Shown here one piece after another: positions 2,186-18,564 of a DNA stretch of 64,000 nt (positions are counted from its first letter, which is position 1; every line of letters starts with the position of its first letter). The DNA comes from Ricordea florida (taxonomy: Eukaryota > Cnidaria > Anthozoa > Corallimorpharia > Ricordeidae): positions 1,085,696-1,149,695 of the forward strand of contig OX453272.1 in the NCBI GenBank assembly GCA_949710005.1. The letters are read 5' to 3'. A model generated the notes under the pieces. That model was not told where the DNA came from. It made no database searches and worked only from the letters and a program-made list of their open reading frames with translations. The position numbers and the translations under genes were made by a program.

Positions 2186-2470
2186 ACTACTATGTAAGCG
2201 GGTTTATAAGTTGGTTTTTAGGTTAAGTGGGGGGTCCCCAGTCATTTTTAGGTTACGGGTTATTTTAAAATTCGTCCTTTTTTAGCTTAAAGTTATAAGT
2301 TGATTTTTAGGTTAAGTGGGGGGTCCCCCAGTCATTTTTAGTTTACTGGATATTTTCAAATTTGACTGAAAAATTCGTCCTTTTTTAGCTTAAATTTATA
2401 AGTTGATTTTTTCAGATTACAAAAAAATTGATTTAAAGGATAGGTAATATTCATAAAGATTAGTTATGGA
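2186..2470 (+). repeat. left terminal inverted repeat
   Basis: Pairs base for base with the reverse complement of 18280-18564. It starts ACTACTATGTAAGCGGG and ends TTAGTTATGGA, so it includes the start codon of the first gene and its early-type promoter. Inside are direct repeats beginning TTATAAGTTG at 2204, 2293 and (partial) 2396, each full copy holding a small palindrome GGGGTCCCC. Confidence 0.97.
2424..2431 (+). promoter_or_regulatory. early-type promoter AAAATTGA
   Basis: The octamer, followed by TTTAAAGG, lies 34 nt before the ATG at 2466, inside the TIR. It is identical to the Mimivirus early-promoter octamer (established); function here is inferred. Confidence 0.7.
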
Positions 2471-2924
2471 TCAGTTAAGAGATTTATATACTTATGAACT
2501 AAAAATAATAGCGAAAGATCTTGAAATTAAAGGAAGAGCAAAAATGAGTAAGCAAGAACTAATTGATGAAATTACAAAATTTAAAGATGAGGAAATTACT
2601 GATTTAATTGAAAAAGTTTTCCCCATTAGCAGAATTATTTGTGACCATGGGAAAATAAAAAAATTTTGTAGTGAATGTAATGGGTATAATTGTACGCATA
2701 ATAAATATAAATATCGATGCAAGGAATGTGGAGGATCGCAAATATGCGAACATAATAATCAAAAACAACAATGTAAAGAATGTGGAGGATCGCAAATATG
2801 CGAACATAATAATCAAAAAGCTTCTTGTAAAGAATGTGGGGGATCGCAAATTTGTGAGCATGGTAAGCAAAAAGCTTCTTGCAAAGCTTGCAGAATGAAA
2901 TTATTATTAAATGATTTTTTTTAA
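2466..2924 (+). CDS. SAP-like domain plus Cys/His zinc-ribbon repeat protein
   Basis: 152 residues. Residues 1-40 look like a SAP or Rho-N-type helix-extended-helix DNA-binding module (LRDLYTYELK, KGRAKMSKQELIDEI). Residues 58-142 hold about five tandem copies of a unit of the form ICEHxxxKxxCKECGGSQ, pairing C, H, C and C as probable zinc ligands. Such CEH...CKECGG repeats are familiar from giant viruses and protists, but no function is established that I know of. Early-type promoter and position beside the TIR suggest a nucleic-acid-binding regulator or TIR-binding protein (inference). The ATG lies within the TIR, so the first residues are encoded by repeat DNA. A conserved hairpin follows the stop codon. 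Confidence 0.85.
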   Translation: MDQLRDLYTYELKIIAKDLEIKGRAKMSKQELIDEITKFKDEEITDLIEKVFPISRIICDHGKIKKFCSECNGYNCTHNKYKYRCKECGGSQICEHNNQKQQCKECGGSQICEHNNQKASCKECGGSQICEHGKQKASCKACRMKLLLNDFF

Positions 2925-2943
2925 GCGAAGAATGGGTAATTAT

Positions 2944-2972
2944 GTTATGTAACCCTATTTTGGTTTCATAAC
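2944..2972. terminator. 3' hairpin after the SAP/zinc-repeat gene
   Basis: GTTATGTAACC and GGTTTCATAAC pair over 10 of 11 positions around a 7-nt loop, 20 nt after the stop codon. The arm resembles those at 3669 and 9011 (GTTATRTAAC). Confidence 0.7.
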
Positions 2973-3003
2973 AAAAAATTGATATTTAAAAAGAAAAAAA
3001 CAT

Positions 3004-3011
3004 AAAATTGA
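3004..3011 (+). promoter_or_regulatory. early-type promoter AAAATTGA
   Basis: Lies 34 nt before the ATG at 3046, in the context AAAATTGATTAAAAG. A second AAAATTGA at 2975-2982 sits just upstream, directly after the preceding hairpin. Confidence 0.7.
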
Positions 3012-3045
3012 TTAAAAGTAGTTCAATATCCAGTAAAAATATAAA

Positions 3046-3654
3046 ATGAAACTCAAGTATTTCAACAATAAGAATCTCAATATTTGCGATTTTATAGAGG
3101 AAATAAAAGAAGATATATTAAAAAATTTGGTGAAAAATAGGGAATTTATAGAGAAAAAATACTTTTTTCGCCATCCAATAAATTTTCGTGTAAAGTATTA
3201 TAATAAAAATTATGATTTTACACATAGTATTTCTTGGGATGAAAAAATAAATTTTGGGGTTGGCGGAATTAAAACTAATAAATTCGCGAAAAAAATTTTA
3301 GAAGTAGCCAATAAAGATTTTATTGAAAATGAATATAGATATGGGTATGATCCAAATTATGGCTGGATTATTGAAAACGGATATGCAGTAGATCATTTTT
3401 ATGAAAATGGGGTTTATCTTGCTTATCATGATGCGGTGTGTAGAATTGAGGAATTTGATAAAAACTTTGTAATAAAAGAATTAGATTTTTGTGTTAATTT
3501 AAATGAACATAAGATTGCGCATAAAGAGTTATTTTTCAAACCATTAGATGCTGAATTAATCGAGGTAGTAATGCATCCATCAAGGTATTTAGATTGGTAT
3601 GTCGATTTTGAGGAATTAAGAGATTTGAAAGAACGTTGGGGTGAAGAAGATTAA
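3046..3654 (+). CDS. hypothetical Polinton protein (202 aa)
   Basis: I do not recognise the family with certainty. The protein is soluble in appearance, without membrane segments or a signal peptide, and rich in Lys, Asn, Tyr and Phe. The C-terminal stretch with VMHPSRYLDWYV recalls a short motif near the end of many uncharacterised giant-virus proteins, but that is recollection, not a search. It has its own early-type promoter, an ATG 34 nt after the octamer, and a hairpin at 3669 shared with the convergent gene at 3721-4353. Early expression and lack of structural features argue for a regulatory or host-interaction role rather than a virion component (inference). Confidence 0.8.
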   Translation: MKLKYFNNKNLNICDFIEEIKEDILKNLVKNREFIEKKYFFRHPINFRVKYYNKNYDFTHSISWDEKINFGVGGIKTNKFAKKILEVANKDFIENEYRYGYDPNYGWIIENGYAVDHFYENGVYLAYHDAVCRIEEFDKNFVIKELDFCVNLNEHKIAHKELFFKPLDAELIEVVMHPSRYLDWYVDFEELRDLKERWGEED

Positions 3655-3668
3655 TATTATCTAATTAT

Positions 3669-3700
3669 GTTATATAACTTTTGAGTAATAGTTATGTAAC
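3669..3700. terminator. bidirectional 3' hairpin between convergent genes
   Basis: GTTATATAACT pairs with AGTTATGTAAC over all 11 positions (one G-T wobble) around a 10-nt loop. It sits between the stop codons at 3654 (plus) and 3721 (minus), so it may end both transcripts. Confidence 0.75.
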
Positions 3701-3720
3701 AAAAAAAAGTCCTCGGTAAT

Positions 3721-4353
3721 TTATCTAAATCTTAAACTAAAAGTTATTGGTAATCCCCGCAAATCAAGTTTTTTCCAATCATTGTCTAAGATAGATAAAT
3801 CAAAGTGGTTTATGGGTCTCTCATATTTTTGAATCGGAATTGCTGGATAATCCTTCGAGGGCATGTTTGCAAGCAGTTGCGACGGAGCTAGTTTTAAAAG
3901 TTCACCATTTTTACTTTTATTCATATATGTCATCCTATTATCAACTATACTGCACATAAGTCTCAAAGGCTCCCTAATCTGAATATTTATAGGGTATAAT
4001 TTACCAGGATTTAAAACTATAGGAACTCCTAAACCAATTGACAATTCTCTTGTAATTATAACTTTGGAGTTCTTATTTGAATAAAGATAGTCAATGGTAT
4101 CAGTCTCAATTATTGTTATTTTTTCCAAACCAGGATCATTAAGAAAGATTGATTGAATGCCGCGAAGAGTATATGTGCCTGGCGGAATTATGAAGCTCTG
4201 ATTCTTACCATATAATATTGTCTGTTCGTCCTTGAAATTAATCAATCTTTTGGTTTGTATATTACAATCCAGGAGTTGTATCTCCCGAAGATTTTTCAGC
4301 GGTGGATCTAAATAAACCCGGGTTTCAGAATCATACATTGTAATACTTAGCAT
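3721..4353 (-). CDS. putative minor virion protein (210 aa)
   Basis: 210 residues, no membrane segment, predicted beta-rich with many short hydrophobic strands. The C-terminus, NHFDLSILDNDWKKLDLRG and a short hydrophobic end, has the form seen at the end of virion proteins encoded beside structural genes in cnidarian Polintons. A single jelly-roll penton or minor capsid role is plausible because no other penton candidate is obvious, but this is inference. The late motif ATCTAAA lies 27 nt upstream of the ATG. It is the last gene of the minus-strand structural block. Confidence 0.8.
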   Translation of the reverse strand: MLSITMYDSETRVYLDPPLKNLREIQLLDCNIQTKRLINFKDEQTILYGKNQSFIIPPGTYTLRGIQSIFLNDPGLEKITIIETDTIDYLYSNKNSKVIITRELSIGLGVPIVLNPGKLYPINIQIREPLRLMCSIVDNRMTYMNKSKNGELLKLAPSQLLANMPSKDYPAIPIQKYERPINHFDLSILDNDWKKLDLRGLPITFSLRFR

Positions 4354-4357
4354 TTTG

Positions 4358-4402
4358 TTTTGATTACATCATATTCATCTTTTAGATTTTATATAATCAA
4401 AA
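4358..4402 (-). terminator. possible 3' hairpin of the 537-aa gene
   Basis: TTTTGATTA pairs with TAATCAAAA across a 27-nt loop, immediately after the stop codon at 4405. The sequence differs from the GTTATRTAAC hairpins, so it is weaker evidence. Confidence 0.4.
4381..4387 (-). promoter_or_regulatory. late-type motif ATCTAAA
   Basis: 27 nt before the ATG at 4353, in an AT-rich stretch. Confidence 0.6.
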
Positions 4403-4404
4403 CA

Positions 4405-6018
4405 TTAACGAAATAAAAACCAGGATAATAATCCTCCTCCAAGCATTAAAATAATGAGATTATTTTGATGAGAAGAGGATGTTTCTATATTACTAACTTC
4501 TTCCTCATTGACTGATTTATCGTTATTGCTTAATTTAGGTTTACTTGGTTGTGGATTGGTATTTAATAAAACCTTTGATGATCCTAAACTATGACTTATT
4601 CCGACATTTTTTGTCTGCGCATTTATTGTATTATTTACCCCAAAAGTCATATCTTCTGTTACCCTTTTCAAATCATTATTATACCCAATAACGCTTTCTG
4701 TATTTATAATTAAATTGCTCGGCATTAGCCAAACGCCAGGAGCTACAGCTAAATCAAGTCGGGATTTTGATTCTTGAACCGCCGTTTGATATCTTTGAAT
4801 TGATTGGGACACATCATTTTCAATCACCGAACTTTCAAATAAAGTTATAAAGTTTTGTTGAGTTTCAAAACCTCCGCCCCCTTTACTAACAATTGAAGTT
4901 CTGGTATTAACTTGTGCCCCTAAAACGCAATAAACAAAAGCCTCAATCGATCTATTTATTCTTCCCAATCCCGCCTTTGTTAATCCATGCCCCGATTCTG
5001 GTATAAACCAAGCATATTGAAAATCAACAAAATGATCATTTCGAAGCATTGAAACTAAATTCCCCATATTTTTTCTTCCTCCATCGTCGTAAAATTTATG
5101 ATCGCGGCTCGGCCAAATATTTGCTTCTGTATCATAATTTCTTATAACCCTCACATTTTGAAATCCACCACCCTTTGCTTGCGCGGCTTCACTTCCCGGA
5201 ACTGCATCATGGTCTGTATATCCTCCCCCATAATCAATGAATATATCACCAGCCCCATGGTTTGCGCCTCCTTTGAATCTAAAATCCGCTAAAGTTTTGT
5301 TCCATCCCTTGTAATCTTGATCATTACTTAACCCAAATTCCGCGCACAATCTATTATAAGCATTTTTATTGTATGGGTTATTTTTCAAAGAAAAAGTTTG
5401 TTCGTCGGGTAAGGGCACCTTTAATTCCTGTATTATTCTTCTTATGGTAAAGTAAATGTGAAATACGAAAAAACTTCTAATAACTTTGGGATATCCAAAA
5501 ATATCACTTAAACTTACTCCGCATCCGGACGATGCGCACCAAACTGCCATGTTTAATTGTTGCGGCCACTGATTAATATTTGGTTTACTCAACCAAGCTC
5601 TTGTTTCTTTTCCACTGGTAAATCCCACAGTTTGATTTTTAAAAACATTCTTCATTGTCGCAGTGAAACTATCTTTTTCTGAAACATATATATTCAGATT
5701 GGTTAATAATTTTGTAACATCAAGAGCAAATTCGTCGAATTTAACTCCAGGTATTGGATATGTTTGTTTTGTAAATGTTAAACTTTTGGGAAATGAACTT
5801 ACCTTTACTTTATTTTTTAAACCCAAATCTTCCCGCAATAACTTTTTCAAATTATCGGGAAGATCATCAGTCCATGTTTTTCCAGTAGGATCATCATCAG
5901 ACATAACTGTTAAACCATTAACTTTCCATTTAACATATCCCCCATATAAATCATGCACATAACTGAATTTGGAAATATTTGCTTTTGGGTAGCGGGTACT
6001 GAAATCGCTAAATAACAT
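4405..6018 (-). CDS. large Polinton virion-type protein with C-terminal membrane anchor
   Basis: 537 residues from the ATG at 6018; the frame continues upstream to 6081 only from a TTG, and the late motif ATCTAAA lies in that extension 30 nt before the ATG, so the shorter form is preferred. The family recurs in cnidarian Polintons (recognised by stretches such as WPQQLNMAVWCASSGCGVS and the SVIGYNNDLKRVTEDMTFGV segment) but has no established biochemical role. Visible features are a Gly-rich middle, a Ser/Asn-rich linker near residues 470-510, and a single hydrophobic C-terminal helix (LIILMLGGGLLSWFLFR) that would anchor it in a membrane. Probably a virion surface or inner-membrane protein (inference). 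Confidence 0.88.
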   Translation of the reverse strand: MLFSDFSTRYPKANISKFSYVHDLYGGYVKWKVNGLTVMSDDDPTGKTWTDDLPDNLKKLLREDLGLKNKVKVSSFPKSLTFTKQTYPIPGVKFDEFALDVTKLLTNLNIYVSEKDSFTATMKNVFKNQTVGFTSGKETRAWLSKPNINQWPQQLNMAVWCASSGCGVSLSDIFGYPKVIRSFFVFHIYFTIRRIIQELKVPLPDEQTFSLKNNPYNKNAYNRLCAEFGLSNDQDYKGWNKTLADFRFKGGANHGAGDIFIDYGGGYTDHDAVPGSEAAQAKGGGFQNVRVIRNYDTEANIWPSRDHKFYDDGGRKNMGNLVSMLRNDHFVDFQYAWFIPESGHGLTKAGLGRINRSIEAFVYCVLGAQVNTRTSIVSKGGGGFETQQNFITLFESSVIENDVSQSIQRYQTAVQESKSRLDLAVAPGVWLMPSNLIINTESVIGYNNDLKRVTEDMTFGVNNTINAQTKNVGISHSLGSSKVLLNTNPQPSKPKLSNNDKSVNEEEVSNIETSSSHQNNLIILMLGGGLLSWFLFR

Positions 6019-6048
6019 CTTATTCTTTGTTTTCCAATTTACCTGATC

Positions 6049-6055
6049 TTTAGAT
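6049..6055 (-). promoter_or_regulatory. late-type motif ATCTAAA
   Basis: 30 nt before the ATG at 6018, within GATCTAAAGATC. Confidence 0.6.
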
Positions 6056-6133
6056 CTTTTAAGAATAAGATGAAAAATCAATTAATGCCAGCGAAACAAT
6101 TACAACCAACATCCGTTTTCTCATAAACAAATT

Positions 6134-6754
6134 TTAATGACCTTTCCCTCCGGTAAGTTCTTTTAATAGATCTTCTCGAACTTTCTTTCGTATTATACTC
6201 ATGTCGAAGTTTTTTTCCGAATCTTTTCTGAATTTTTGTCGTATTTCTTGTTTCAGTTTTTGAAACTTTTCCAATTCTGCTAAAATTATGGAAAATTCTT
6301 GGTCGGATATAGCATTATCTTTCAAAGCTTTTGAGACTAAATCGTTAATTGTGTTTAATTTTGATTTTGCAATTGCAACGGTTTGTTCGTGTTTACTAAC
6401 TTTACCAGAAAGACTTTTAGAGGCAAAACCAAATCCAATCGACAAACCTCCAAAAACACCCCCAACCGCACCCAAAGGAATACCGACAACAGCACCAAAA
6501 CCCGTGAGAGAAGTTCCTAATCCGCTTGCTGATAGAATAACTGAAATAAATCCGACAGAAACACTAATTTTTGTACATATTCCTCTTGCTCTATTATATT
6601 TTTTCCTTACTTCTTCGTAATGTTTAATTTCCTTCTCGAGATTTTGTAATACCTCGCTTGATTTTTGAAGTCTGAAATTAATCAAATTATCTCCGTTTTG
6701 TGTTTGGAAATTATTATTAGGTATTTGAGGATAAATTCCATTGTATTCACCCAT
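6134..6754 (-). CDS. membrane-associated Polinton virion protein (206 aa)
   Basis: The ATG at 6754 (MGEYNGIYPQ) is preferred because the longer frame to 6856 starts at TTG and overlaps the upstream gene; a late-type ATTTAAA lies 28 nt before it. Residues 1-35 are Asn/Gln-rich, 35-65 form a charged helix, and about 68-125 form a long Gly/Ala/Val-rich hydrophobic region that could span a membrane two or three times. The C-terminal third is a charged alpha-helical or coiled-coil tail. It looks like a family common in cnidarian Polintons, always beside the next gene upstream. A role in an internal virion membrane or membrane penetration is inference. Confidence 0.85.
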   Translation of the reverse strand: MGEYNGIYPQIPNNNFQTQNGDNLINFRLQKSSEVLQNLEKEIKHYEEVRKKYNRARGICTKISVSVGFISVILSASGLGTSLTGFGAVVGIPLGAVGGVFGGLSIGFGFASKSLSGKVSKHEQTVAIAKSKLNTINDLVSKALKDNAISDQEFSIILAELEKFQKLKQEIRQKFRKDSEKNFDMSIIRKKVREDLLKELTGGKGH

Positions 6755-6782
6755 ATTGTATTTTACTGAACGGAATGATATC

Positions 6783-6789
6783 TTTAAAT
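6783..6789 (-). promoter_or_regulatory. late-type motif variant ATTTAAA
   Basis: 28 nt before the ATG at 6754; one base from ATCTAAA. Confidence 0.45.
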
Positions 6790-6792
6790 TTG

Positions 6793-8010
6793 TTACTTTC
6801 TCTTCTTTTTTATACTTTCCACAAAATATAGAACTACAGCCATTATCAAAAGCCAAGCATTCTCACCTAAAAATCCAATAACCCGACCTGCGGTTTTGAA
6901 AAGAAAGCTAACTATGGCTCCGACCATTCCAGGTAATATTTCACCCAGTTTTTTCCCAAGATTTTTCAAACCATTTCCTACGCCTCTACCCAAAGCAGAT
7001 AAGCCCTTTGAAAGATTAGAAACTATAACCCCAACGATTACACCTACCGCACTTAGAACAGCAAAAACTGTAAAACCGTACTTTTTGAAGATATACTTTA
7101 GTTTCTCCCGCAGAGGTAAATTTTTAAATATTTCATCTTTTCGGCCCTCAATATCTGATAATTGTTCTTCACTTGAAATTGTTTTATTACTAAGTCGTTC
7201 TTTTAATTTATCTACCTCAGATTTTAATCTCTCATTACTTTGTTTTAATTTTGATTCATTTGATTTACCCTTCTTATATTTATCTATTTCTTCTTTGTAT
7301 AATTTTACTTCGTCCAAAAGTTTTTCCGCTTGTATTTTTAATTCCACATTCTGTTTTACGGTTTGATCGAAAAGACTTTTATTTTCTGCTTTTTGTACCT
7401 GTTGTCTCTCAATGAATTCCCTAAGTTCTTTTTCTCTTTCCGCGTATCGTTCAATCTCCAAAGGATATACTTCTGCTGTTGCTTTCAATCCCTGCAAAGC
7501 ATTATCTAATTCATTATTTGTTTCAATAGATTTCCTCAATTCTAACTGGGTATTATTATATTTTTCCAACATGCTTTCATAATCAGCACCTAGAGCTTTT
7601 CTAAATGTTTTTGGCAAATTTTCTATATTAAGAACCCCATTTTCATCAACTAATGTATGCCACACATTATTTCTAGCAGTACTTAATTGTCCTTCTATGC
7701 TACTATTTTCTCCAAACCGCACATTAAATGGGCTTTCATTTGGCTCGTAATCTGGGTAATATCGTTTGAGTTCTTGCCTAGCTTCTCTCATTCTATCATA
7801 ATCCTCATCTCTTTCTCCCAGGTTCATTCTTTCTGGGGGTTTTTCCCATTGAGCCCTGTCTCTTGATTGGTTATAATCATCATAACCAGAATAATCTTTT
7901 TCAAGGGATGTAGATGTGTTTGTGGTTTGTAAAGCTGTATCATCCCAATCATAATTATCATCATCATCATTATCTCTTGAAAAATCTTCCATTGGTATTT
8001 CTTCCGCCAT
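6793..8010 (-). CDS. coiled-coil membrane protein of the Polinton virion (405 aa)
   Basis: Residues 1-90 are acidic and disordered (a run of Asp near 14-24). Residues about 150-290 form a long Glu/Lys-rich coiled coil. Residues about 310-345 (YGFTVFAVLSAVGVIVGVIVSN) are hydrophobic, followed by an amphipathic Gly-rich stretch and another hydrophobic hairpin near 365-398, ending in KKKRK. The layout recalls a viral tether or fusion-like protein with a membrane-active C-terminus, but no fusion family is recognised. The ATG at 8010 has ATCTAAA 26 nt upstream. The 3' end overlaps only the non-ATG extension of the next gene. Confidence 0.87.
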   Translation of the reverse strand: MAEEIPMEDFSRDNDDDDNYDWDDTALQTTNTSTSLEKDYSGYDDYNQSRDRAQWEKPPERMNLGERDEDYDRMREARQELKRYYPDYEPNESPFNVRFGENSSIEGQLSTARNNVWHTLVDENGVLNIENLPKTFRKALGADYESMLEKYNNTQLELRKSIETNNELDNALQGLKATAEVYPLEIERYAEREKELREFIERQQVQKAENKSLFDQTVKQNVELKIQAEKLLDEVKLYKEEIDKYKKGKSNESKLKQSNERLKSEVDKLKERLSNKTISSEEQLSDIEGRKDEIFKNLPLREKLKYIFKKYGFTVFAVLSAVGVIVGVIVSNLSKGLSALGRGVGNGLKNLGKKLGEILPGMVGAIVSFLFKTAGRVIGFLGENAWLLIMAVVLYFVESIKKKRK

Positions 8011-8036
8011 GATTTTTTACTCATCAGTAAGAAATC

Positions 8037-8043
8037 TTTAGAT
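8037..8043 (-). promoter_or_regulatory. late-type motif ATCTAAA
   Basis: 26 nt before the ATG at 8010. The divergent early motif of the plus-strand gene is only 23 nt away at 8067, giving a compact two-class bidirectional promoter. Confidence 0.6.
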
Positions 8044-8066
8044 CTACTAGATTCGGAAATAAAAGA

Positions 8067-8074
8067 AAAATTGA
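8067..8074 (+). promoter_or_regulatory. early-type promoter AAAATTGA
   Basis: 37 nt before the ATG at 8112 in the context AAAAATTGATTTAAAAG. Confidence 0.7.
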
Positions 8075-8111
8075 TTTAAAAGAAAAAAAGGAATAAATAA
8101 AAAGAAATAAA

Positions 8112-8996
8112 ATGATGAACGAAAATACTAAACTAATAGAAGATATTAATAATTACAATCCAAAAGAAAGTATGATTTTTTCTAAACCAATTTTGGGAGA
8201 AGTTCCAGGTAGCAAGCCAAAGGTTGAATTTAGGCGAATTAAAATTTATTCAAGAAATGAAGATGGAACTAAAGGAGAATTAGTTATTAAAACCGGTCGC
8301 TTGTATTCATTCGGAGTTTCTGAAAGTTTTTCAACTTATTCTTTTCCCTTATGTTTATGGAGAGGAAATATTCCCACCGATGAAGAGGAAGAATGGTTAG
8401 AAAAATTTAATGAAATAGTAGATTGTTGCATTGATCATATTATAGAAAATAAAGAAAAAATTGATAGGTTTGAGTTGAAAAGATCTGATCTCACTAAAAC
8501 AAAGAGAGGTTTAAATCCTATATATTGGAAAATGGAAAAAATTGAAGATGGTAAAAACAAACCTTATTTACAAAGAGTTCCTGATAGCGGGCCAAGATTA
8601 TATCCAAAATTAATAAAAAAAAAAGGAGAATTTCTTACAAAATTTTATGATATTAGAAGTGAGGATTGTAATGAAGAAATAAATTACCAAGATTTAATCA
8701 ATAAAAGGTGCTACGCAGAGTGTTCAATCAAAATTGAATCAATATTTATTAATCCTACACTTATTTCATTGCAAGTAAAGCTTTATGACGCTCTCGTAGA
8801 AACGAAAAAAGAAATTAAAAGATTGGCTCCTCGCAGAAAATATAATCCCGAAGTAATTATTTCCGACGGAGAATCTGCTTCTTCCCATATTGGTTATGAC
8901 GATGAAAGCGAAAGCGAAAGTGAAATTTCCTCCAATGACGAATATAGACATTTTCCCCGAACCCGCGGGAGGAGTTTTGATTTGGTGGAGAACTAA
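8112..8996 (+). CDS. hypothetical protein, tentatively giant-virus DUF5871-like (294 aa)
   Basis: The only plus-strand gene inside the structural block, and the only one there with an early-type promoter. Residues 30-60 and 180-235 are beta-rich; the segment around residues 204-232 (SIKIESIFINPTLISLQVKLYD) recalls an uncharacterised family of nucleocytoplasmic large DNA viruses, possibly a single-stranded-DNA-binding type. That assignment is from memory and needs a profile search. The C-terminal 50 residues are acidic, Ser/Glu-rich and disordered. If correct, it would be a replication or early regulatory factor acting with PolB. Two adjacent ATGs (8112, 8115) are possible starts. A conserved hairpin follows at 9011. 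Confidence 0.82.
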   Translation: MMNENTKLIEDINNYNPKESMIFSKPILGEVPGSKPKVEFRRIKIYSRNEDGTKGELVIKTGRLYSFGVSESFSTYSFPLCLWRGNIPTDEEEEWLEKFNEIVDCCIDHIIENKEKIDRFELKRSDLTKTKRGLNPIYWKMEKIEDGKNKPYLQRVPDSGPRLYPKLIKKKGEFLTKFYDIRSEDCNEEINYQDLINKRCYAECSIKIESIFINPTLISLQVKLYDALVETKKEIKRLAPRRKYNPEVIISDGESASSHIGYDDESESESEISSNDEYRHFPRTRGRSFDLVEN

Positions 8997-9010
8997 TCAT
9001 AATAACTTAT

Positions 9011-9042
9011 GTTATATAACTAAAAATTATTAGTTACATAAC
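9011..9042. terminator. bidirectional 3' hairpin between convergent genes
   Basis: GTTATATAACTAA pairs with TTAGTTACATAAC at 12 of 13 positions around a 6-nt loop. It lies between the stop codons at 8996 (plus) and 9054 (minus) and shares its arm with the hairpin at 3669. Confidence 0.75.
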
Positions 9043-9053
9043 AAAATAATAAT

Positions 9054-9446: not shown

Positions 9447-9447
9447 T

Positions 9448-9666
9448 TTATTTTGGTAAAATCTTTTGTTCCTCTAAATATGTTTTTAGATACATGCTTC
9501 CGGATAGTACTGCAACCCATTTTGCGTAATTTGTAATACTCATGGATGGGTCACTCAAAAATGATTCTTTCATCATCTTTTTTGCGACATACCCAACTCC
9601 CGCGCTTAAACCGATAAGCACAGCTGAATCAGTTACAGTTTTCACAAGTTTGTTTTCTGTCGACAT
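9448..9666 (-). CDS. small membrane protein (72 aa)
   Basis: A 72-residue protein with two weak hydrophobic segments, about residues 13-28 (SAVLIGLSAGVGYVAKK) and 46-60 (AKWVAVLSGSMYLKT). It starts at a clear ATG with ATTTAAA 27 nt upstream and sits in tight tandem with two other membrane-protein genes. Size and position are typical of the small virion membrane proteins of cnidarian Polintons. Function unknown. Confidence 0.78.
   Translation of the reverse strand: MSTENKLVKTVTDSAVLIGLSAGVGYVAKKMMKESFLSDPSMSITNYAKWVAVLSGSMYLKTYLEEQKILPK
9485..9491 (-). promoter_or_regulatory. late-type motif ATCTAAA
   Basis: 38 nt before the ATG at 9446, inside the coding sequence of the upstream gene; the spacing is longer than at the other late genes. 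Confidence 0.5.
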
Positions 9667-9693: not shown

Positions 9694-9700
9694 TTTAAAT
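9694..9700 (-). promoter_or_regulatory. late-type motif variant ATTTAAA
   Basis: 27 nt before the ATG at 9666. Confidence 0.45.
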
Positions 9701-10149: not shown

Positions 10150-10156
10150 TTTAGAT
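10150..10156 (-). promoter_or_regulatory. late-type motif ATCTAAA
   Basis: 26 nt before the ATG at 10123. A second copy at 10129-10135 is probably too close to the ATG to be the main signal. Confidence 0.6.
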
Positions 10157-10759: not shown

Positions 10760-11386
10760 TTAAATCACTTCGGGTATCTCTAAATAGCAATTAAATGGGT
10801 AACGCAAAGATAAACATAACCTAGAATATTTTTCTGTTTTCAGGAGTTGCACAAATTTTTTACCTAATTCATAATCCAAATCGCCGCCATAATCTTCGAA
10901 AAACATCTTCATGCCTTTCTGAGAAGGATTATGAAAAGTAACGACGCAGGCAACATTTTCCCGGAATGGTTTTGCTATTGAAGTTAATTGCTGAGTGAGA
11001 ACCCAAACTGATAATCCATGATGCCTTCCGGAGAATGCTAAATCTATAAATTTATTTGATCTTTTCTTCAGATCAGTGGATACCGCGCAATCATCTAAAA
11101 TTATTAAAGTATTTGTTCCGGAGAATAAAGTTTGGCAATCAGTTAGTAACTCATTAATCTCCTCTACGTTACTTGCATCCGGAGATAATACATAAAAACG
11201 CTCATCCTTTTTAGCAAAATTAAGATAAGTTTTATTTTTAGAATAAGTCGGACAAATTAAAACAATATATTCAAAAACTTTCCGGAAAGGACCTCGGAGC
11301 TGTTCAATTAAGTACTTTGTTTTTCCGCAATTCGTTGGTCCTGTTATAATACAATGGAAAGGGATTTTATCTCGTAAATCTTCCAT
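10760..11386 (-). CDS. FtsK/HerA (A32-like) genome-packaging ATPase
   Basis: Pumps the genome into the capsid by ATP hydrolysis in Polintons, virophages and large DNA viruses (established). Walker A GPTNCGKT lies at residues 16-23 and Walker B LIILDD at 94-99, counted from the ATG at 11386; the sensor-like SGRHHGLSVWVLTQQ follows. Length (208 aa) is normal for the family. An upstream ATG at 11401 in the same frame would add five residues. I prefer 11386 because it puts the late motif ATCTAAA 26 nt upstream, as at most other late genes. It lies between the capsid gene and the 196-aa gene. Confidence 0.95.
   Translation of the reverse strand: MEDLRDKIPFHCIITGPTNCGKTKYLIEQLRGPFRKVFEYIVLICPTYSKNKTYLNFAKKDERFYVLSPDASNVEEINELLTDCQTLFSGTNTLIILDDCAVSTDLKKRSNKFIDLAFSGRHHGLSVWVLTQQLTSIAKPFRENVACVVTFHNPSQKGMKMFFEDYGGDLDYELGKKFVQLLKTEKYSRLCLSLRYPFNCYLEIPEVI
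10779..10785 (-). promoter_or_regulatory. weak late-type motif ATTTAGA
   Basis: 27 nt before the ATG at 10751, within the end of the ATPase gene; two bases from ATCTAAA, kept because of its position. Confidence 0.3.
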
Positions 11387-11412
11387 ATTTTTTTGTATCA
11401 TAACATTATGTT

Positions 11413-11419
11413 TTTAGAT
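11413..11419 (-). promoter_or_regulatory. late-type motif ATCTAAA
   Basis: 26 nt before the ATG at 11386, or 11 nt before the alternative ATG at 11401. Confidence 0.6.
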
Positions 11420-11431
11420 TCTTCCCTTTGG

Positions 11432-12670
11432 TCAGTACTTAATTGATCTCAAACTTGAATTCATTATCTCCATCATTGCGTCAGCCACAACGAACATATG
11501 ACAAGTTATTGTTCCAGTTCCGCCTTGTTTCCTTTTAATTTCTATTTTTACTCCATCGTGCGTATTATTTAGAGCAAGTCCTCCTCCATGAATTCCATTA
11601 TCTGGATGAGTTCTAGTATCTACCCAAAGAGCAAACTTATCCGCGTAAAATTCTTTTTCTTTCAAAGAAATTTGTCCTCCCGTTGGTCGGAATCGTTTCT
11701 TCGCGGATTCCCAAAGATCGGACGGAATCATTCCCCTAGAGTATATTCTATTCGGAACGCCATCAACATCAATTTCAACGGAAGAAATACCAGGATTATA
11801 AAAATTTTCAGAATCCCTTGCTCCCGCAGCTTGAGGTGATAAAAACAAAAACAATATTCCTGTCATTGATCTTCTCGGTAAATTAATATGCTGATTAATA
11901 ACACCATCACCGCTAATTGAAAATGTGAAAGTTTTATGCAAAGTAACATTTTCATAAAAGAATCCTTTGCCGACTTGATAAGTTGCTTGAGCCTCACGAG
12001 CTAAGTATTCGCTAGAAATTGAGGAATATTCTAACTCTAAGTTTTTGATTGAATATGATGGCGCTTTAGTTGTATCAGAATAAATAAGAATATTGGCGAT
12101 CGGGGCAAGCGTAATCTCAAATATAAGATGATTTTCCAACGCTTTCGGATAAAAAACACCATGATCATTTAGAATAGGATGATTTATTGGTATTCTGTAC
12201 TTTGAACCGTGAACATTAGCGAGAGCAACTTCTTTTACATCTTGTGTTTTTGCATCTCCGGCTTTTGTTCTAAGTTTTCTAATATTTGGCGAAGAAATAC
12301 CTTGTTTTAATCTATCCTCTCGCTCTTCTTCGGTTAAGAATAAATCATGATATGTTTGAAATGAATCATATCCTTGAGTATCTTGCAATGTTTCTCCTCC
12401 AAAAAGAACTTTTAGTCTGGTTACAAGATTACGGCCCAAATTATTTACAACCGTATTATTTGCATGGCCCTCGACATCTAAATCAAATAGAAGAGATACA
12501 CTTCCAGGCACAATCACTAAATTCTCGGAAAGTTTTGGAATATTTATATATAATGTTTCTCCCGGGCTGGCTGAGGATGGATTTAGAGTAATTCGATTTA
12601 GGGTTGATTCGGCTTTCAAACCAAATGGTTCTTTGGGAATTCTGTTTGGGTTAATTTTTTCAGACGTCAT
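11432..12670 (-). CDS. major capsid protein, double jelly-roll
   Basis: 412 residues, a usual size for Polinton major capsid proteins, which form trimeric capsomers of an icosahedral shell (established for the family; homology recognised here by eye). Recognisable stretches include the N-terminal NRITLNPSSASPGETLYINI, the LGRNLVTRLKVLFGGETLQD segment that closes the first jelly roll, and the second-domain TGILFLFLSP and VDGVPNRIYSRGM segments. The ATG is unambiguous. The coding strand upstream holds GTATCTTATAAATT 5-18 nt before the ATG, matched upstream of the 59-aa gene, and GTTTAAA 29 nt before it. The frame is intact. Confidence 0.95.
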   Translation of the reverse strand: MTSEKINPNRIPKEPFGLKAESTLNRITLNPSSASPGETLYINIPKLSENLVIVPGSVSLLFDLDVEGHANNTVVNNLGRNLVTRLKVLFGGETLQDTQGYDSFQTYHDLFLTEEEREDRLKQGISSPNIRKLRTKAGDAKTQDVKEVALANVHGSKYRIPINHPILNDHGVFYPKALENHLIFEITLAPIANILIYSDTTKAPSYSIKNLELEYSSISSEYLAREAQATYQVGKGFFYENVTLHKTFTFSISGDGVINQHINLPRRSMTGILFLFLSPQAAGARDSENFYNPGISSVEIDVDGVPNRIYSRGMIPSDLWESAKKRFRPTGGQISLKEKEFYADKFALWVDTRTHPDNGIHGGGLALNNTHDGVKIEIKRKQGGTGTITCHMFVVADAMMEIMNSSLRSIKY

Positions 12671-12699
12671 TGTAAATTTATAAGATACTTTGGTTAACC

Positions 12700-12706
12700 T
12701 TTAAAC
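12700..12706 (-). promoter_or_regulatory. weak late-type motif GTTTAAA
   Basis: 29 nt before the capsid ATG. The alternative signal is GTATCTTATAAATT right before the ATG, repeated before the 59-aa gene at 12880. Confidence 0.35.
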
Positions 12707-12880: not shown

Positions 12881-12906
12881 TTCAATTTATAAGATACTTG
12901 TTTATT

Positions 12907-12913
12907 TTTAAAT
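12907..12913 (-). promoter_or_regulatory. late-type motif variant ATTTAAA
   Basis: 26 nt before the ATG of the 59-aa gene and overlapping the integrase start on the other strand. Confidence 0.4.
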
Positions 12914-13886
12914 GATGACAAAAATATATTATTCAGCTGAAGGATATTGGAAAGGATATTCTGCAATTCCTAAATTGGCTGAGAAGGGGAAAGTAAGTGA
13001 AAATGAGGCAAAACAATGGTTGCAGAAACAGGCAATATGGCAAATCTATCTACCCGCCCCTAAATATATACCTAGACCGCACTGGACTGTGGATAAGCCC
13101 AATCAGATTCACCAAGCAGATTTATTATTTTTACCGCATGATAGAGTTGGAAGAAAAACTTATAAATATGCGTTAGTCTTGGTTGATATCGCCTCGAGAT
13201 ATAAAGATGCGGAGCCATTAACCTCAAAAGAAAGTCGAGAGATATCAGAAGCTTTTAAGAAAATATATTCTAGAAGATTAAAATACCCAAAAACTTTAAT
13301 GGTTGATCCTGGGAAAGAATTTATGGGAGAAGTTAGTAAACTCATGAATTACCATAATGTGAAGATACAAAGAAGTGAGGCTGGTAATCATAGAGCTCAA
13401 GCATTTGTGGAAAACGCAAATAGAATATTAGGAGAAAGATTATTTAGTCATCAATATGCGCAAGAAATGATCAGTGATGATCGATCAAGAGTATGGGTGA
13501 AAAGATTACCAGCTATTCTAAAAACTTTGAATAATACACTGATGAGAATAACCGGTAAAGAGCCTGATAAGGCTATAAAAATGAAAGAGGTGAATATTGA
13601 AACTAAAAATTACAAACGCGCGGTGGGGCTTGATGAGGTTAGACTACCAACTGAAGTTAGGGTTAGATATTTATTAGCTCCAGGTGAACTTGAGGGTGGA
13701 GAAAGAAGAAGAGCCACAGATCCCATTTGGAGCATAAAAGTTTATTATATTTCTGGAAGTAGAATTTCTCCTAATCAGCCTGTTTTGTATTTTTTGGAAG
13801 ACGGCCCAAGGCGCAGTTTTGTACGTGAAGAATTACAGGTTATTCCTTATGATACAGAGTTACCCCCTAATTCTGTTTTAAAATAA
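12912..13886 (+). CDS. retroviral-type (RVE) integrase of the Polinton
   Basis: Catalyses strand transfer of the element ends and makes the 6-bp target duplication seen here. The DDE triad is D70 (HQADLLF), D132 (VDPGKEF) and E167 (AFVENANR), a DD35E spacing. An N-terminal helical region precedes the core; the C-terminal domain (about 210-324) is beta-rich and Polinton-type, with no clear chromodomain. 324 residues is full length. Its last 9 bases overlap the end of the convergent polymerase gene. It has neither a clear early octamer nor a well-placed late motif; it may be driven from the bidirectional spacer shared with the 59-aa gene. ATG at 12912, with a second at 12915. Confidence 0.95.
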   Translation: MMTKIYYSAEGYWKGYSAIPKLAEKGKVSENEAKQWLQKQAIWQIYLPAPKYIPRPHWTVDKPNQIHQADLLFLPHDRVGRKTYKYALVLVDIASRYKDAEPLTSKESREISEAFKKIYSRRLKYPKTLMVDPGKEFMGEVSKLMNYHNVKIQRSEAGNHRAQAFVENANRILGERLFSHQYAQEMISDDRSRVWVKRLPAILKTLNNTLMRITGKEPDKAIKMKEVNIETKNYKRAVGLDEVRLPTEVRVRYLLAPGELEGGERRRATDPIWSIKVYYISGSRISPNQPVLYFLEDGPRRSFVREELQVIPYDTELPPNSVLK

Positions 13887-16800
13887 TGGTTTTGTGTGAA
13901 TTCCATCCTCATAAACCCATCTTTTATCATAATATGCGTTCAATCCCTTTTTAATTTGTGTATATGTCACAATTTGGTTATCATTGATTCTAAATCCTGT
14001 ATTTTGTGACATATCAATTGACCCTTTCAAAGCTGACATGTACCTATCCCAGTTCATTTCGTTTTGTCTATGAATTGTACCTTTGCAACTATACTTTGCC
14101 TTTCCTTTCTCATCCTCCGCGTAATAACATTTTGAGGAAAGAGCAATCATTCTAATGCCGTCAAACTCTTTTTTGAACAAACCCGGAGTCTTGTCATGAT
14201 ATTTAGAAGTTGATAGGAATTTTTCTTTTCCGCCGGTAAAGTATTCTTCTCTCATTTCGGGTTTTATAATATCATCCAAATTTTCAGACGAGATTGCCAT
14301 GTACATTGAATCTGTATCCATTTGAATCAGCTCAAAATCCTTTCTATCTAGATATTTATCTAGAAAATCGTAATAGAATTCCAGCATTCTTAATTTTGCT
14401 AGCTGATACACCGCGATGCCGCATTGGTAGGGTCTGTCTATTTTTATTAATCTTTTTCGTTTTATTATTTCATATGTGTCATTTATTTCATTAAGATCCT
14501 CAAAAAAAGCAGATCTTAGGGCTTTTTCAACCTCTTCCTCATCCTGAGTATACCTTGTGATATTATGTTTTTCTTTATCTTCTATCATTTTCCCGTAGAA
14601 AGAATTTCCCCTAAGTTTATTCGTGTCGGCTAATTCTTTACAACCTTTGTACTTTGGTTTTAGTTTTTCAATCAGTACTTTGATATCTTTATTTTCTTCA
14701 ATAACTTTAAATATATCGGGGAATTGGTTTAGTTCATTGGTAATTTTCACAACATCGTCAATCTTGTTTTCATCAAAGGCTTTACTTAGTTTTTCCAATA
14801 AAACCTCAATATCTCCATCTCTTCTTGCGTCTGCCACCTCTTTTGGGAAAAATCCAAAGGGCCTTCCCGATTCATACTTTAAAATATTATGGATGGCGGT
14901 AATCTCCAAACCATGATTAAGATACCATTTTATCATAGGAGTATATAAAAATATCTTTTTTGCCTTGGTTACGCCAAGTAATTTTTTATTGTCTTTTAAA
15001 TGTTTTCTTCCTGTAGCTGTTTGATATTCTTTCATATTCTCTGGTACTAAATATTCAGGAACGGAGTCTACAATAAATAAGGGGGAGAACTCTTCAAACT
15101 TTTCTTTTAGGTGATCAGGTGCATGGATATCAACTTGACAAAACCCGAAAAGATTTCCATCAAGAATATCTTCGCAAATCTTCTTAATAAATTTAGGATC
15201 CGATGGATTTTCAACCTCAATGCATTTTTCTTTTCCGCATGGCATTTCTTGTCCTGAACAGGATAGATATAAACCATTTGCTTCATACCCAACAATTCGC
15301 ACACATTTTTTCGGAATTTTATATTTATGGGGGCGAATCTTTGTTTCTTCCTTTTCTGCATATCGTGTAAATATAATACTAGGGCCTCCAACCATCCCCG
15401 TTTTCAATAACTTATAAATCTTGTTTTTGTCGCATATTTTACAATCTTTCTTTATTTTGTAGCATTTTTTGCAAAACTTATCTTTACAAAATTCACCGCA
15501 ATTATGGGCACAATATTGCCCAGGGGCGTACAATTCAGGATCGCCTTTCTTCTTCATTTTTTGGTATTTATTTAGAACAGCCCTCATTGATACACCCGGA
15601 ATGGAAACGGCATCTTTTAATATATCAATTTCGTCTGGATAATATAAACGCCTTGTTTTTTCAAGGGCTTCCAGAAAGGGAATAACATCATTCAAATTAT
15701 ACTCTTTCAACCAGTCTAACATTGTAACACAGCCCCTCTTTTCGAATTCGAGCAAATATTCTTCATATTCTTCTTTGGAAATATTTTTCTTTTTCAAGGA
15801 AGAGTAAAAATCTTCATGTTTCACGGGTCCAACTAAGGAAAGCTTATCATAACCGTCCAATTTTTCATAAGGTAGAACAAGTTTTTGGGCTTCACAATTG
15901 TTTGCTTTGCACCACTTATCAAAAGAAACCCCAGGCGCAAGGTAGGACATTATATCCAAGAATTTGAAATGCGGTGTTGTTAAAAACATATACCTATTCT
16001 GTTTCTTTGCAATAAAAATCTCCTTAGTTTTTTCGGTCATGTGTTTTATAAAATGTCTTTTAATCAAATTGATATCGTATTTTCCACTATTAAACCCCAA
16101 AACAGGTACTTGATTGCACCATTCTTCATATTTTTGCAAGACATTTTTTTGTAAGGAATCTTGATCAGGAAGCGGATATTCTTCTCTAACCTTTTCGACT
16201 ATAATTTTTCTTATTTCCTCCAATTTTTCTACGAATTCTTTTATGAGGAGATCAGGATTTTGGTTGTAAAGAAAAACAGGTTTTTTTGTTAAATTATCGA
16301 TTAGTGCAACACTAACTGGAATATGGGTATGGGTGAAAATTAAATCATCGGTAATCTGTTTATCTTCTTTTTGTAATAATCCCTCAAAATCGTAATCAAT
16401 AAAATAGGGATATGGATTAAATTTCTTTTTGAACCATATTTTGGGCAATTCAGGATTTTCACACTCCCAAACCGATACTACATTATAACCCAAGCTTTTT
16501 ATAATATTCTCTCTTTCAATAGTTTCATTATATTTAATTTTGTCGGTTTCTGAACACGGACACCCATGCCATTTACAACCATAAAACTCAAAAACGGTAT
16601 TTGTCTCGGGTTCGTATCCATCAAATAAAATCTCATTCCCCTCTTCATCCCTATAACACCTTTCGCCACCATGCCCACAAAGCGCATGATGAATATGTTT
16701 ACCCATAATTTTAGCTTGGTTTTCTATCCACCGACACGCTTTATAACTAAAATTGATTTTACCCCCGTAAAAAACTTTTTCAGATTCATTCATGATTCGT

Positions 16801-18284
16801 TTTATCTTTTCTCCTGTGCAAAATATTTTTGTCTTTCCTCCTGTGCATGTTTCATTGGTAAAATGCCTTTTTAAATCTTCGTGCCTGGTAAATTTTTGAT
16901 TACATCCTTGGCATACCCAGTTTTGAGCAAGAAGATCTAGATCCTTAATGAAAAAACCATGATTATTATAAAGACCTAAATTTAAAGTTGGTAAATTATC
17001 TTTGAAATTATTTTTCCCAAACACCAGTTTCCAAACTGAAAAATTTGATATATCTTTCTGCTCATAAACCCGGATATTTATTGAAAAAGTTTTTGAAATT
17101 TTCTCAAAATCAACCAATTTTGTTGATCTAACATCTTCTTTTTTTAGTTTTTTATTGCCATAAAAAGTTCTAGCCAGATATAATGATTTTTTCTCTATGT
17201 CCTTTTCAGGATTTTGTTTACCATCAAGAATTTTCATTAGAATAGCCAAACACCGCCATACACAGAGATTATCATCTTTATCATCTACAGAGTAAATACA
17301 TCTTTTCTTTCGTAATTCATCGGGTAATCTTCCGCACCCAACTAAAGGCTGTCTGGTATTAATAACTTTTATTTGTACTTCTCTAAACTCAACTCCACCC
17401 TCATTAACACCTGGTTTATTAATCTTCTTTTCTGGGGGTAAATATGCTCTCATCCAAGCATCTCCTTCTAAGCTCAATCTCTCACCCTCACACCTCTCTA
17501 TATATTTTTTTATTTCTGAAAGGGAATTAAAAGTTCCTCCGCTTCTAAATGTATGAAAGTGATAAGCTATTTCTCCGTTTCCTCTTTGAATCAAAGCAGA
17601 AAAACTGAAAACAATTCTTACCCCCATTTCTATTTGAGGTTCCAACTCATTATAAATTGTTTCTGTCAAATCATTATTTAGATTCCTCCTAATTCTAATA
17701 ATATTTTCATTTATTCTCCGGTTATTTCGAATTAGGGGATCATCTTCATTTAGATTTATTGAAAATATTTTGAGGGTTGTTGTTCTTTTCTTTTTAGTTT
17801 TTTCCTTCAATTCATCTCTCACACTATCAGAAAAATTTTTACCCTTCTTTTTTGGTTGAGATTTTTTACTATTAGTAAGTTTTATAATATTTTCATTGAT
17901 TAAATCCTCAAGCTTTTTATTTATTGGTTTGAGAATTGGAACATTAATTTCAGGTACCGGCTCATCAAGAATTGGTTTTTGTGGTTTTATAAACGTTGGT
18001 GCTAGTTTCCTTCTTCTTGGTGAAAAAGAACCAGGCGGAGTTCTTGATTTTTGCGGTTGATCGTGAAATAAACCAATTTCTTGAATTGGAATTTTTAATT
18101 GGCTTGGATTATTAACGAAAAACTTATTAATTTCTGGAATTTTACGTAACTCTTTCATAACTACATTTTTTCGTAATTTTTTACCTTTTTCTTTGATAAT
18201 TTTTACTAACTGTTTTATTATTAAGCTTCTTATTATTTTGCCATTTTCTTCTGGCTTTTCCGCAAAACTTTTTTTTGGGTCCAT
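13878..18284 (-). CDS. protein-primed family B DNA polymerase with extra N-terminal domains
   Basis: 1468 residues; replicates the linear element. Order: basic disordered tail (1-170); a cysteine-peptidase-like region with DDNLCVWRCL around C341 and NNHGFF at H442, resembling OTU-type domains (inference); a C2H2 zinc finger 458-480; a Vsr/PD-(D/E)XK-like segment about 553-608 (FEFYGCKWHGCPC). The 3'-5' exonuclease follows: ExoI D632/E634, ExoII N732-D737, ExoIII Y862-D866, then a Cys-rich knuckle 925-951. Polymerase motif B is KLRGNSFYG (1223-1231) and motif C MDTDS (1322-1326). Motif A reads GYEANGLYL, with Glu1001 where the catalytic Asp is expected. Start codon and promoter lie in the TIR. 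Confidence 0.95.
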   Translation of the reverse strand: MDPKKSFAEKPEENGKIIRSLIIKQLVKIIKEKGKKLRKNVVMKELRKIPEINKFFVNNPSQLKIPIQEIGLFHDQPQKSRTPPGSFSPRRRKLAPTFIKPQKPILDEPVPEINVPILKPINKKLEDLINENIIKLTNSKKSQPKKKGKNFSDSVRDELKEKTKKKRTTTLKIFSINLNEDDPLIRNNRRINENIIRIRRNLNNDLTETIYNELEPQIEMGVRIVFSFSALIQRGNGEIAYHFHTFRSGGTFNSLSEIKKYIERCEGERLSLEGDAWMRAYLPPEKKINKPGVNEGGVEFREVQIKVINTRQPLVGCGRLPDELRKKRCIYSVDDKDDNLCVWRCLAILMKILDGKQNPEKDIEKKSLYLARTFYGNKKLKKEDVRSTKLVDFEKISKTFSINIRVYEQKDISNFSVWKLVFGKNNFKDNLPTLNLGLYNNHGFFIKDLDLLAQNWVCQGCNQKFTRHEDLKRHFTNETCTGGKTKIFCTGEKIKRIMNESEKVFYGGKINFSYKACRWIENQAKIMGKHIHHALCGHGGERCYRDEEGNEILFDGYEPETNTVFEFYGCKWHGCPCSETDKIKYNETIERENIIKSLGYNVVSVWECENPELPKIWFKKKFNPYPYFIDYDFEGLLQKEDKQITDDLIFTHTHIPVSVALIDNLTKKPVFLYNQNPDLLIKEFVEKLEEIRKIIVEKVREEYPLPDQDSLQKNVLQKYEEWCNQVPVLGFNSGKYDINLIKRHFIKHMTEKTKEIFIAKKQNRYMFLTTPHFKFLDIMSYLAPGVSFDKWCKANNCEAQKLVLPYEKLDGYDKLSLVGPVKHEDFYSSLKKKNISKEEYEEYLLEFEKRGCVTMLDWLKEYNLNDVIPFLEALEKTRRLYYPDEIDILKDAVSIPGVSMRAVLNKYQKMKKKGDPELYAPGQYCAHNCGEFCKDKFCKKCYKIKKDCKICDKNKIYKLLKTGMVGGPSIIFTRYAEKEETKIRPHKYKIPKKCVRIVGYEANGLYLSCSGQEMPCGKEKCIEVENPSDPKFIKKICEDILDGNLFGFCQVDIHAPDHLKEKFEEFSPLFIVDSVPEYLVPENMKEYQTATGRKHLKDNKKLLGVTKAKKIFLYTPMIKWYLNHGLEITAIHNILKYESGRPFGFFPKEVADARRDGDIEVLLEKLSKAFDENKIDDVVKITNELNQFPDIFKVIEENKDIKVLIEKLKPKYKGCKELADTNKLRGNSFYGKMIEDKEKHNITRYTQDEEEVEKALRSAFFEDLNEINDTYEIIKRKRLIKIDRPYQCGIAVYQLAKLRMLEFYYDFLDKYLDRKDFELIQMDTDSMYMAISSENLDDIIKPEMREEYFTGGKEKFLSTSKYHDKTPGLFKKEFDGIRMIALSSKCYYAEDEKGKAKYSCKGTIHRQNEMNWDRYMSALKGSIDMSQNTGFRINDNQIVTYTQIKKGLNAYYDKRWVYEDGIHTKPLF

Positions 18285-18564
18285 AACTAATCTTTATGAA
18301 TATTACCTATCCTTTAAATCAATTTTTTTGTAATCTGAAAAAATCAACTTATAAATTTAAGCTAAAAAAGGACGAATTTTTCAGTCAAATTTGAAAATAT
18401 CCAGTAAACTAAAAATGACTGGGGGACCCCCCACTTAACCTAAAAATCAACTTATAACTTTAAGCTAAAAAAGGACGAATTTTAAAATAACCCGTAACCT
18501 AAAAATGACTGGGGACCCCCCACTTAACCTAAAAACCAACTTATAAACCCGCTTACATAGTAGT
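18280..18564 (-). repeat. right terminal inverted repeat
   Basis: Mirror image of 2186-2470. Its inner end carries the ATG and early-type promoter of the polymerase gene, so both terminal genes are driven by the same sequence. Confidence 0.97.
18319..18326 (-). promoter_or_regulatory. early-type promoter AAAATTGA of the polymerase
   Basis: Mirror copy of the left TIR octamer, 34 nt before the polymerase ATG at 18284. Confidence 0.7.

Follow-up and report, generated by a model that had tools for sequence, protein, structure and literature searches.

A Polinton-type element and its signals

The stretch of Ricordea florida DNA analyzed here (64,000 nt of contig OX453272.1; hereafter the window) contains a Polinton-type element spanning about positions 2186-18564, with short motifs of two classes upstream of its genes and hairpins of conserved sequence at several gene ends. 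The motifs, their positions, the split into two classes, the recurrence in divergent copies of the element and the hairpins were all observed directly. The integrase, the ATPase and the repeats assign the element to Polinton/Maverick. Self-comparison of the window revealed terminal inverted repeats (TIRs) with arms of 286 nt (2185-2470 and 18280-18565) that are 100% identical, and CACAGG, immediately beyond both element ends, is a target-site duplication; inverted repeats with such a duplication are a Polinton trait. The arms extend 5 nt into each flanking open reading frame (ORF), g1 on one side and a 1,468-aa ORF (g14) on the other. The TIRs and the genes to which a function or motif could be attached are the following.

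2185-2470, no strand: left TIR, with an early-type promoter and 5 nt of the SAP/zinc-repeat ORF at its start
2466..2924, plus strand: g1, Rho_N (SAP-like) domain and cysteine repeats (PF07498, E 2e-6; relatives found)
3046..3654, plus strand: g2, 202 aa, no family assigned
8112..8996, plus strand: g7, DUF2738, the 294-aa gene (PF10927, E 8.1e-51)
10760..11401, minus strand: g11, A32-like packaging ATPase of the FtsK/A32 type (PF04665, E 1.3e-11)
11432..12670, minus strand: g12, possible major capsid protein (PF16903, E 0.0023, below the cut-off)
12912..13886, plus strand: g13, retrovirus-type integrase (rve; PF00665, E 3.7e-9)
13878..18284, minus strand: g14, polymerase-like ORF of 1,468 aa with MDTDS and NSFYG motifs (polymerase-B-like)
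18280-18565, no strand: right TIR, with the promoter of the polymerase-like gene and 5 nt of its start

These assignments come from 16 ORFs run against Pfam, two of them outside the element; the starts of g4, g5 and g10 were shifted to the first ATG in the ORF, and the small ORFs g8b and g12b were picked by eye. The polymerase-like ORF, a candidate for the protein-primed family B DNA polymerase expected of a Polinton, had neither a Pfam polymerase match nor a PDB sequence match. The capsid-like protein, a candidate for the expected double-jelly-roll major capsid protein, had no PDB sequence match either, and PF16903 is carried by some of its relatives. PHROGs gave no informative match for the eight element proteins tried, IMG/VR confirmed no relative for the capsid-like protein or the DUF2738 alignment, and GTDB contigs confirmed no relative of DUF2738.

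Two classes of upstream motif

According to the original prediction, the octamer AAAATTGA, known from Mimivirus early promoters, stands at a fixed distance before four genes of the element. All four sites are present (2424-2431, 3004-3011 and 8067-8074 on the plus strand, 18319-18326 on the minus strand), the distances from the octamer end to the ATGs at 2466, 3046, 8112 and 18284 are 34, 34, 37 and 34 nt, and the extended form AAAATTGATTTAAA is nearly constant as claimed, being exact at three sites and differing by one mismatch at 3004. Only three sites are independent, because the TIRs are identical and reach both outer ORFs: the octamers at 2424 and 18319 are copied TIR sequence, and the outer genes share one promoter. 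Such identity of the TIR pair, from the octamer to the ends, was found in three elements. One more octamer, 71 nt upstream of the 202-aa gene (at 2975), had been overlooked, and the others in the element lie inside genes (8457, 8538 and 8730 in the 294-aa gene; 16749 in the polymerase-like gene, on the other strand).

2424..2437, plus strand: early-type promoter of g1, AAAATTGATTTAAA, in the TIR
3004..3017, plus strand: early-type promoter of the 202-aa gene, AAAATTGATTAAAA
8067..8080, plus strand: early-type promoter of the DUF2738 gene, AAAATTGATTTAAA
18313..18326, minus strand: early-type promoter of the 1,468-aa polymerase-like ORF, AAAATTGATTTAAA, in the other TIR and not independent

At the promoter position, octamers exceed chance. 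With the polymerase-like gene left out as a TIR duplicate, the window offers 15 independent upstream regions, three of which have an octamer at -50..-30, a narrow range picked after the data had been seen, against a mean of 0.08 in dinucleotide shuffles (0/3000 reach three); over -100..-8 the shuffled mean is 0.37, and 17 of 3000 shuffles reach three. Across the whole 64 kb there are 24 octamers for 13.8 expected, and no enrichment is seen for the 14-mer when up to two mismatches are allowed (8 vs 6.3; 33/100 shuffles reach 8).

A second motif, T[TC]TAAA, often followed by GA and absent from the original prediction, is common to early- and late-type genes. This box occurs at -50..-15 in 12 of the 15 independent regions, against 2.6 in shuffles; those on the minus strand, with two before small ORFs, are listed below. 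The integrase gene g13 (12912, plus strand) has neither octamer nor box within 100 nt upstream, which corrects the original prediction; its ATG is preceded by TTTTTAA.

4381..4386, minus strand: TCTAAA, 33 nt before g3
6049..6054, minus strand: TCTAAA, 36 nt before g4
6783..6788, minus strand: TTTAAA, 34 nt before g5
8037..8042, minus strand: TCTAAA, 32 nt before g6, with similar letters in many copies of the DUF2738 locus
9485..9490, minus strand: TCTAAA, 44 nt before g8
9694..9699, minus strand: TTTAAA, 33 nt before the small ORF g8b
10150..10155, minus strand: TCTAAA, 32 nt before g9
11413..11418, minus strand: TCTAAA, 17 nt before g11 (ATPase)
12700..12705, minus strand: TTTAAA, 35 nt before g12 (capsid-like)
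12907..12912, minus strand: TTTAAA, 32 nt before the small ORF g12b

The same two-class arrangement recurs elsewhere in the host genome (538 Mb in 48 contigs), whose 52 matches to Wnt exons and 61 to GFP-like exons, the latter in arrays and mostly on contig C11, mark it as that of an animal and probably of a cnidarian. The left portions of six divergent elements supplied 25 upstream regions, of which the 22 that are 60 nt or longer were counted: T[TC]TAAA is found at -45..-25 in 19 of them (2.1 in shuffles), and TGATTTAAA in seven of nine on the plus strand and none of 12 on the minus strand, the 22nd region, upstream of an unassigned 1,119-aa ORF of L073, carrying TGATTTAAA as well. The 11 in-register boxes on the minus strand divide into five TCTAAA and six TTTAAA. 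Measured from box start to ATG, the median distance is 33.5 nt in the window (n=12) and 33 nt in the divergent elements (n=23). For regions with two copies, the one closest to -33 was used; L069 x6, with 19 nt of upstream sequence, was omitted, and L074 g2b has no box. Distances of 31 nt or less make up 1/12 in the window and 9/23 in the divergent elements.

For DUF2738, two host-genome searches gave at least 133 and at least 139 copies, with stops inside two and three of the best candidates scored. The 60 copies compared are the best 30 of each set, lists that may share copies and that favour intact copies because each keeps best candidates only; they form 12 clusters at 90% protein identity. 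TGA followed by TTTAAA lies in register (-36 to -46) in eight of the 12 representatives and at -15 in one, is missing in three, and is kept down to about 60% protein identity. The exact octamer precedes DUF2738 in five of the 12. As the conserved unit the strict octamer, although present in the window, was therefore rejected, being largely lost in divergent copies (5/12 representatives, 2/9 divergent plus-strand genes). What recurs is the arrangement typical of nucleocytoplasmic large DNA viruses (NCLDVs), an A-tract and TGA core at a short, near-constant distance from the start (8/12 and 7/9, with the octamer itself in 3/15 window regions). This makes the octamer the upstream half of a composite of early type (A-tract, TGA, TTTAAA), whose downstream half is the box shared by both classes. 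Exact matches to the longer composite AAAAWTGATTTAAARGAWAAG number 74 in the host genome and 0 for the reversed control, and all 74 listed have the AAAATTGA form. The octamer's enrichment and spacing in related elements, on which the original prediction had staked its case, are borne out in so far as the signal recurs in the same genome, close to the test proposed there; the unit that is conserved is not the Mimivirus octamer.

Hairpins at gene ends

Several genes of the element are followed by hairpins with a conserved TGTTATRTAAC sequence, which are present at most of the convergent early/late junctions seen. Five copies of the 11-mer TGTTAYRTAAC were counted in the window, always within the hairpins at the g1 3′ end and the g2/g3 and g7/g8 junctions.

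2943..2973, no strand: hairpin 3′ of g1
3668..3701, no strand: hairpin at the convergent g2/g3 junction
4356..4404, minus strand: 14-bp inverted repeat (one mismatch) 3′ of g4, its loop enclosing the g3 TCTAAA box
9010..9043, no strand: hairpin at the convergent g7/g8 junction

The box-enclosing inverted repeat between g4 and g3 is also found in the divergent element L074, at 2027-2072 in reverse-complement orientation. Judged against shuffles (at most 9/300), hairpins stand out at six of 14 gene ends, which correspond to four sites (g1, g2/g3, g4 and g7/g8), so that the Mimivirus rule of palindromes at most gene 3′ ends does not hold here. Other 3′ signals were not enriched: AATAAA within 100 nt after the stop was found for 2/14 genes (4.2 shuffled), AATAAA or ATTAAA for 3/14 (6.5 shuffled), and poxvirus T5NT terminators at 1/14 gene ends (1.7 shuffled).

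After DUF2738, the hairpin is present in nine of the 12 cluster representatives; the other three, as read from the letters, have a tandem g6-type gene and not a convergent neighbour. The cluster representatives L039, L041 and L044 have such a g6-type gene in tandem after DUF2738, unlike the window, and lack the in-register early composite and the hairpin. At the corresponding convergent junction the hairpin was found in four of five divergent elements, L073 being without that junction. Among 21 distinct hairpins, chosen because they show the motif and so not an unbiased sample of pairing, of the 252 pair cells 236 are standard on the plus strand and 246 on the minus, pair cells changed on both sides number 10 against 4.3 in shuffles, and the loop-adjacent pair is C-G in 13 rows, U-A in seven and U-G in one, never unpaired on the plus strand.

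The host genome contains 2,663 exact matches to the hairpin pattern, symmetric sites counting twice, and none to the reversed control; the window's own hairpins are not among them because loop length or one base differs from the pattern. Among the first 100 places listed, 19 neighbours on the same strand are spaced by 4.3-5.3 kb, and pairs on opposite strands are absent at 4-6 kb; in the window, the g2/g3 and g7/g8 junctions are 5.3 kb apart. This number of matches and their spacing suggest that the host genome may hold roughly a thousand or more such elements.

Which polymerase could read the signals

These signals are best read as a two-class promoter code of NCLDV type, used by a virus-type polymerase to make transcripts that have short leaders and end in hairpins, a proposal drawn from sequence to which we give even weight. 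The replication-type plus-strand genes and the polymerase-like gene, two of them via the terminal repeats, would be expressed early from the composite, and the capsid-like and other minus-strand genes, with the T[TC]TAAA box alone, the core box that stands about 33 nt before most genes, would be expressed late. The enzyme would be an NCLDV-type RNA polymerase with an early factor reading the A-tract-TGA part, may act in the cytoplasm and could come from a helper giant virus on which the element would depend. Transcription would begin some 15-20 nt before the ATG, and the sequence-specific hairpins at early/late convergent junctions would end the transcripts. In African swine fever virus (ASFV), the promoter core is placed 15-16 nt upstream of the start site (PMC8906413). 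Applied to the box, this spacing would put the start about 19 nt before the ATG. The usual distance from a TATA box to the start is about 30 nt, and the same exercise would then put starts only a few nt away from the ATG, or else inside the ORF (9/23 divergent, 1/12 window). This start geometry, the 3′ hairpins and the unenriched poly(A) signals together lead us to favour a virus-type polymerase.

The Mimivirus and Cafeteria roenbergensis virus (CroV) early promoter is AAAATTGA, and the late motif of CroV and mavirus is TCTA (PMC5294985, PMC8547959). The element shares with these the A-tract and TTGA upstream of early-type genes and the two promoter classes, and TCTA lies within six of the ten minus-strand boxes listed for the window; it differs in that the strict octamer is not conserved, TTTAAA is fused to the octamer, and the element sits in an animal genome. 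Nor is the octamer specific to Mimiviridae, whose signature it was originally taken to be, as the early promoters of ASFV (AAAATTGAAT; PMC8906413) and poxviruses (AAAANTGAAAA; PMC5294985) also combine an A-tract with a TGA core. These viruses infect animals, and poxviruses share the variable base before the core, whereas TGA is followed here by TTTAAA and not by A-rich sequence or AT.

For integrated elements, a promoter motif matched to a giant virus is described in mavirus and endogenous mavirus-like elements (PMC8547959, PMC10945749), the Type 4 members of which carry the CroV late motif TCTA (PMC8547959), and in a pacmanvirus transpoviron the AAAATTGA of the host virus lies upstream of the genes (PMC11788076). 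If the inference of a virus-type polymerase holds, the element would, by analogy, work like these systems. It resembles mavirus-like elements in being integrated, in its rve integrase and in its many copies, and is unlike them as a Polinton (by integrase, ATPase and repeats) in an animal host, with no helper virus seen and with a strict octamer that fails across its relatives. Mimivirus polyadenylation is reported to be hairpin-directed, by hairpins described as not conserved in sequence (PMC4402537). AT-rich palindromes at gene 3′ ends are common to both; here they are conserved in sequence and lie mainly at convergent early/late junctions.

A number of observations weigh against a virus-type code. 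Its most conserved piece is TATA-like and would suit the cellular TATA-binding protein (TBP), and the exact octamer is found in none of the 12 minus-strand regions of the divergent elements and before two of nine plus-strand genes, which 25 of 2000 shuffles equal. The motif patterns were set after viewing part of the data later counted, so that these tests are post hoc, if of large effect. The ends of g5, g6 and g9-g13 show no hairpin that stands out from shuffles (g14 is borderline, at 17/300 shuffles), leaving tandem late genes without them, and the convergent junction of the divergent element L071 has none. Within the hairpins, eight of 12 pairs never vary, two of five covariation measures are not above shuffles, pair 7-40 is non-standard on the plus strand in 14 of 21 rows, and the sequence is conserved, unlike what is described for Mimivirus (PMC4402537). 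Finally, searches of the host genome with VLTF3, NCLDV capsid, Rpb1_5 and D5_N gave a mixed outcome with no clear giant-virus insertion, and Rpb1_5, the sole polymerase family searched, gave 15 partial matches, none covering more than 88 of 267 positions, and no complete viral subunit.

The main rival is a TATA-like host promoter: RNA polymerase II would act in the nucleus with T[TC]TAAA as the box for TBP, the A-tract-TGA only modulating early genes. The box does stand before early- and late-type genes alike, the large number of integrated copies must at times be expressed, the one polymerase family searched gave no complete viral subunit, and with a single short distance in 12, starts just before the ATG are possible in the window. 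We nevertheless find host transcription rather unlikely, given that a TBP spacing of about 30 nt leaves leaders of only a few nt, that starts for 9/23 divergent distances would fall at or inside the ORF, that AATAAA/ATTAAA is not enriched 3′ of genes, and that the hairpins and the class split are left unexplained. The signals could also stem from an ancestor dependent on a virophage or giant virus, persist chiefly through recent descent and serve no virus-type transcription today. A recent expansion could carry such fossils, as many copies are closely related and three elements have TIR pairs without any difference from octamer to ends; we regard it as improbable since the box and TGA core outlast their flanks between elements whose DUF2738 is 49-63% identical to that of the window, and since the hairpin shows some compensatory change.

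Compatible with any promoter reading is the idea that the hairpins are paired sites for DNA-binding proteins, insulation or replication rather than RNA terminators. Each arm is nearly a palindrome by itself (GTTAYRTAAC), the sequence is conserved in a way that Mimivirus 3′ hairpins are not, pairing of the plus-strand RNA is imperfect and most arm positions are invariant. Against this, which keeps it tentative and on the doubtful side, the hairpins immediately follow stop codons where genes converge, the three representatives without one have a tandem neighbour instead, and the loop-adjacent pair stays paired on the plus strand in all 21 rows. Chance octamers in AT-rich DNA might be suspected from the 24 in the window, several inside genes, from the two TIR duplicates among the four promoter sites, and from the unenriched 14-mer. 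The upstream-region shuffles (3/15 vs 0.08 for the octamer) and the recurrence in divergent elements (19/22 vs 2.1 for the box) contradict this, and we rejected a chance origin as very improbable.

The host genome has four matches to VLTF3, a late transcription factor family of large DNA viruses (C15:18661274, C8:15643102, C12:7234181 and C6:16806129), two with internal stops, and the 14 control genomes none. We did not use them as proof of giant-virus insertions, because VLTF3 is also described in adintovirus-like elements (PMC11244446) and the D5_N and NCLDV capsid searches of the host genome found no match, the control for the capsid being uninformative. A protein search with DUF2738 gave 331 relatives, and the 120 listed include one from Stylophora pistillata, one labelled viral metagenome (longest contig 366 kb) and many metagenome proteins; the 26 aligned are 44-85% identical to the window protein, all but the closest 44-63%. 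Some of the DUF2738-bearing metagenome contigs may be giant viruses. Around the element itself, a repeat of about 1.2 kb adjoins it (18683-19879 and 23132-24364, pieces 88-99% alike, about 4.4-4.5 kb apart), and a 324-aa ORF outside it (89-1063) has a GIY-YIG match of 22.4 bits for a Pfam cut-off of 22.6.

In the literature, judged mostly from titles and the starts of abstracts, we found no description of promoters of animal Polintons, and their expression is apparently undescribed so far. It is possible, though we would put it below an even bet, that the Polintons filling this animal genome, which may number a thousand or more, are transcribed by a giant-virus-type, probably cytoplasmic polymerase from an infecting large DNA virus. 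With the same reserve, they would then parallel the mavirus system in an animal, using hairpin terminators and a promoter code of two classes that are their own, and a virophage-like, helper-dependent life, plausible from the sequence, would carry the same odds. A promoter code readable from many copies in one genome makes the question of host versus virus polymerase directly testable, and the answer would show if animals harbour, as Cafeteria does, virophage-like elements with ties to large DNA viruses.

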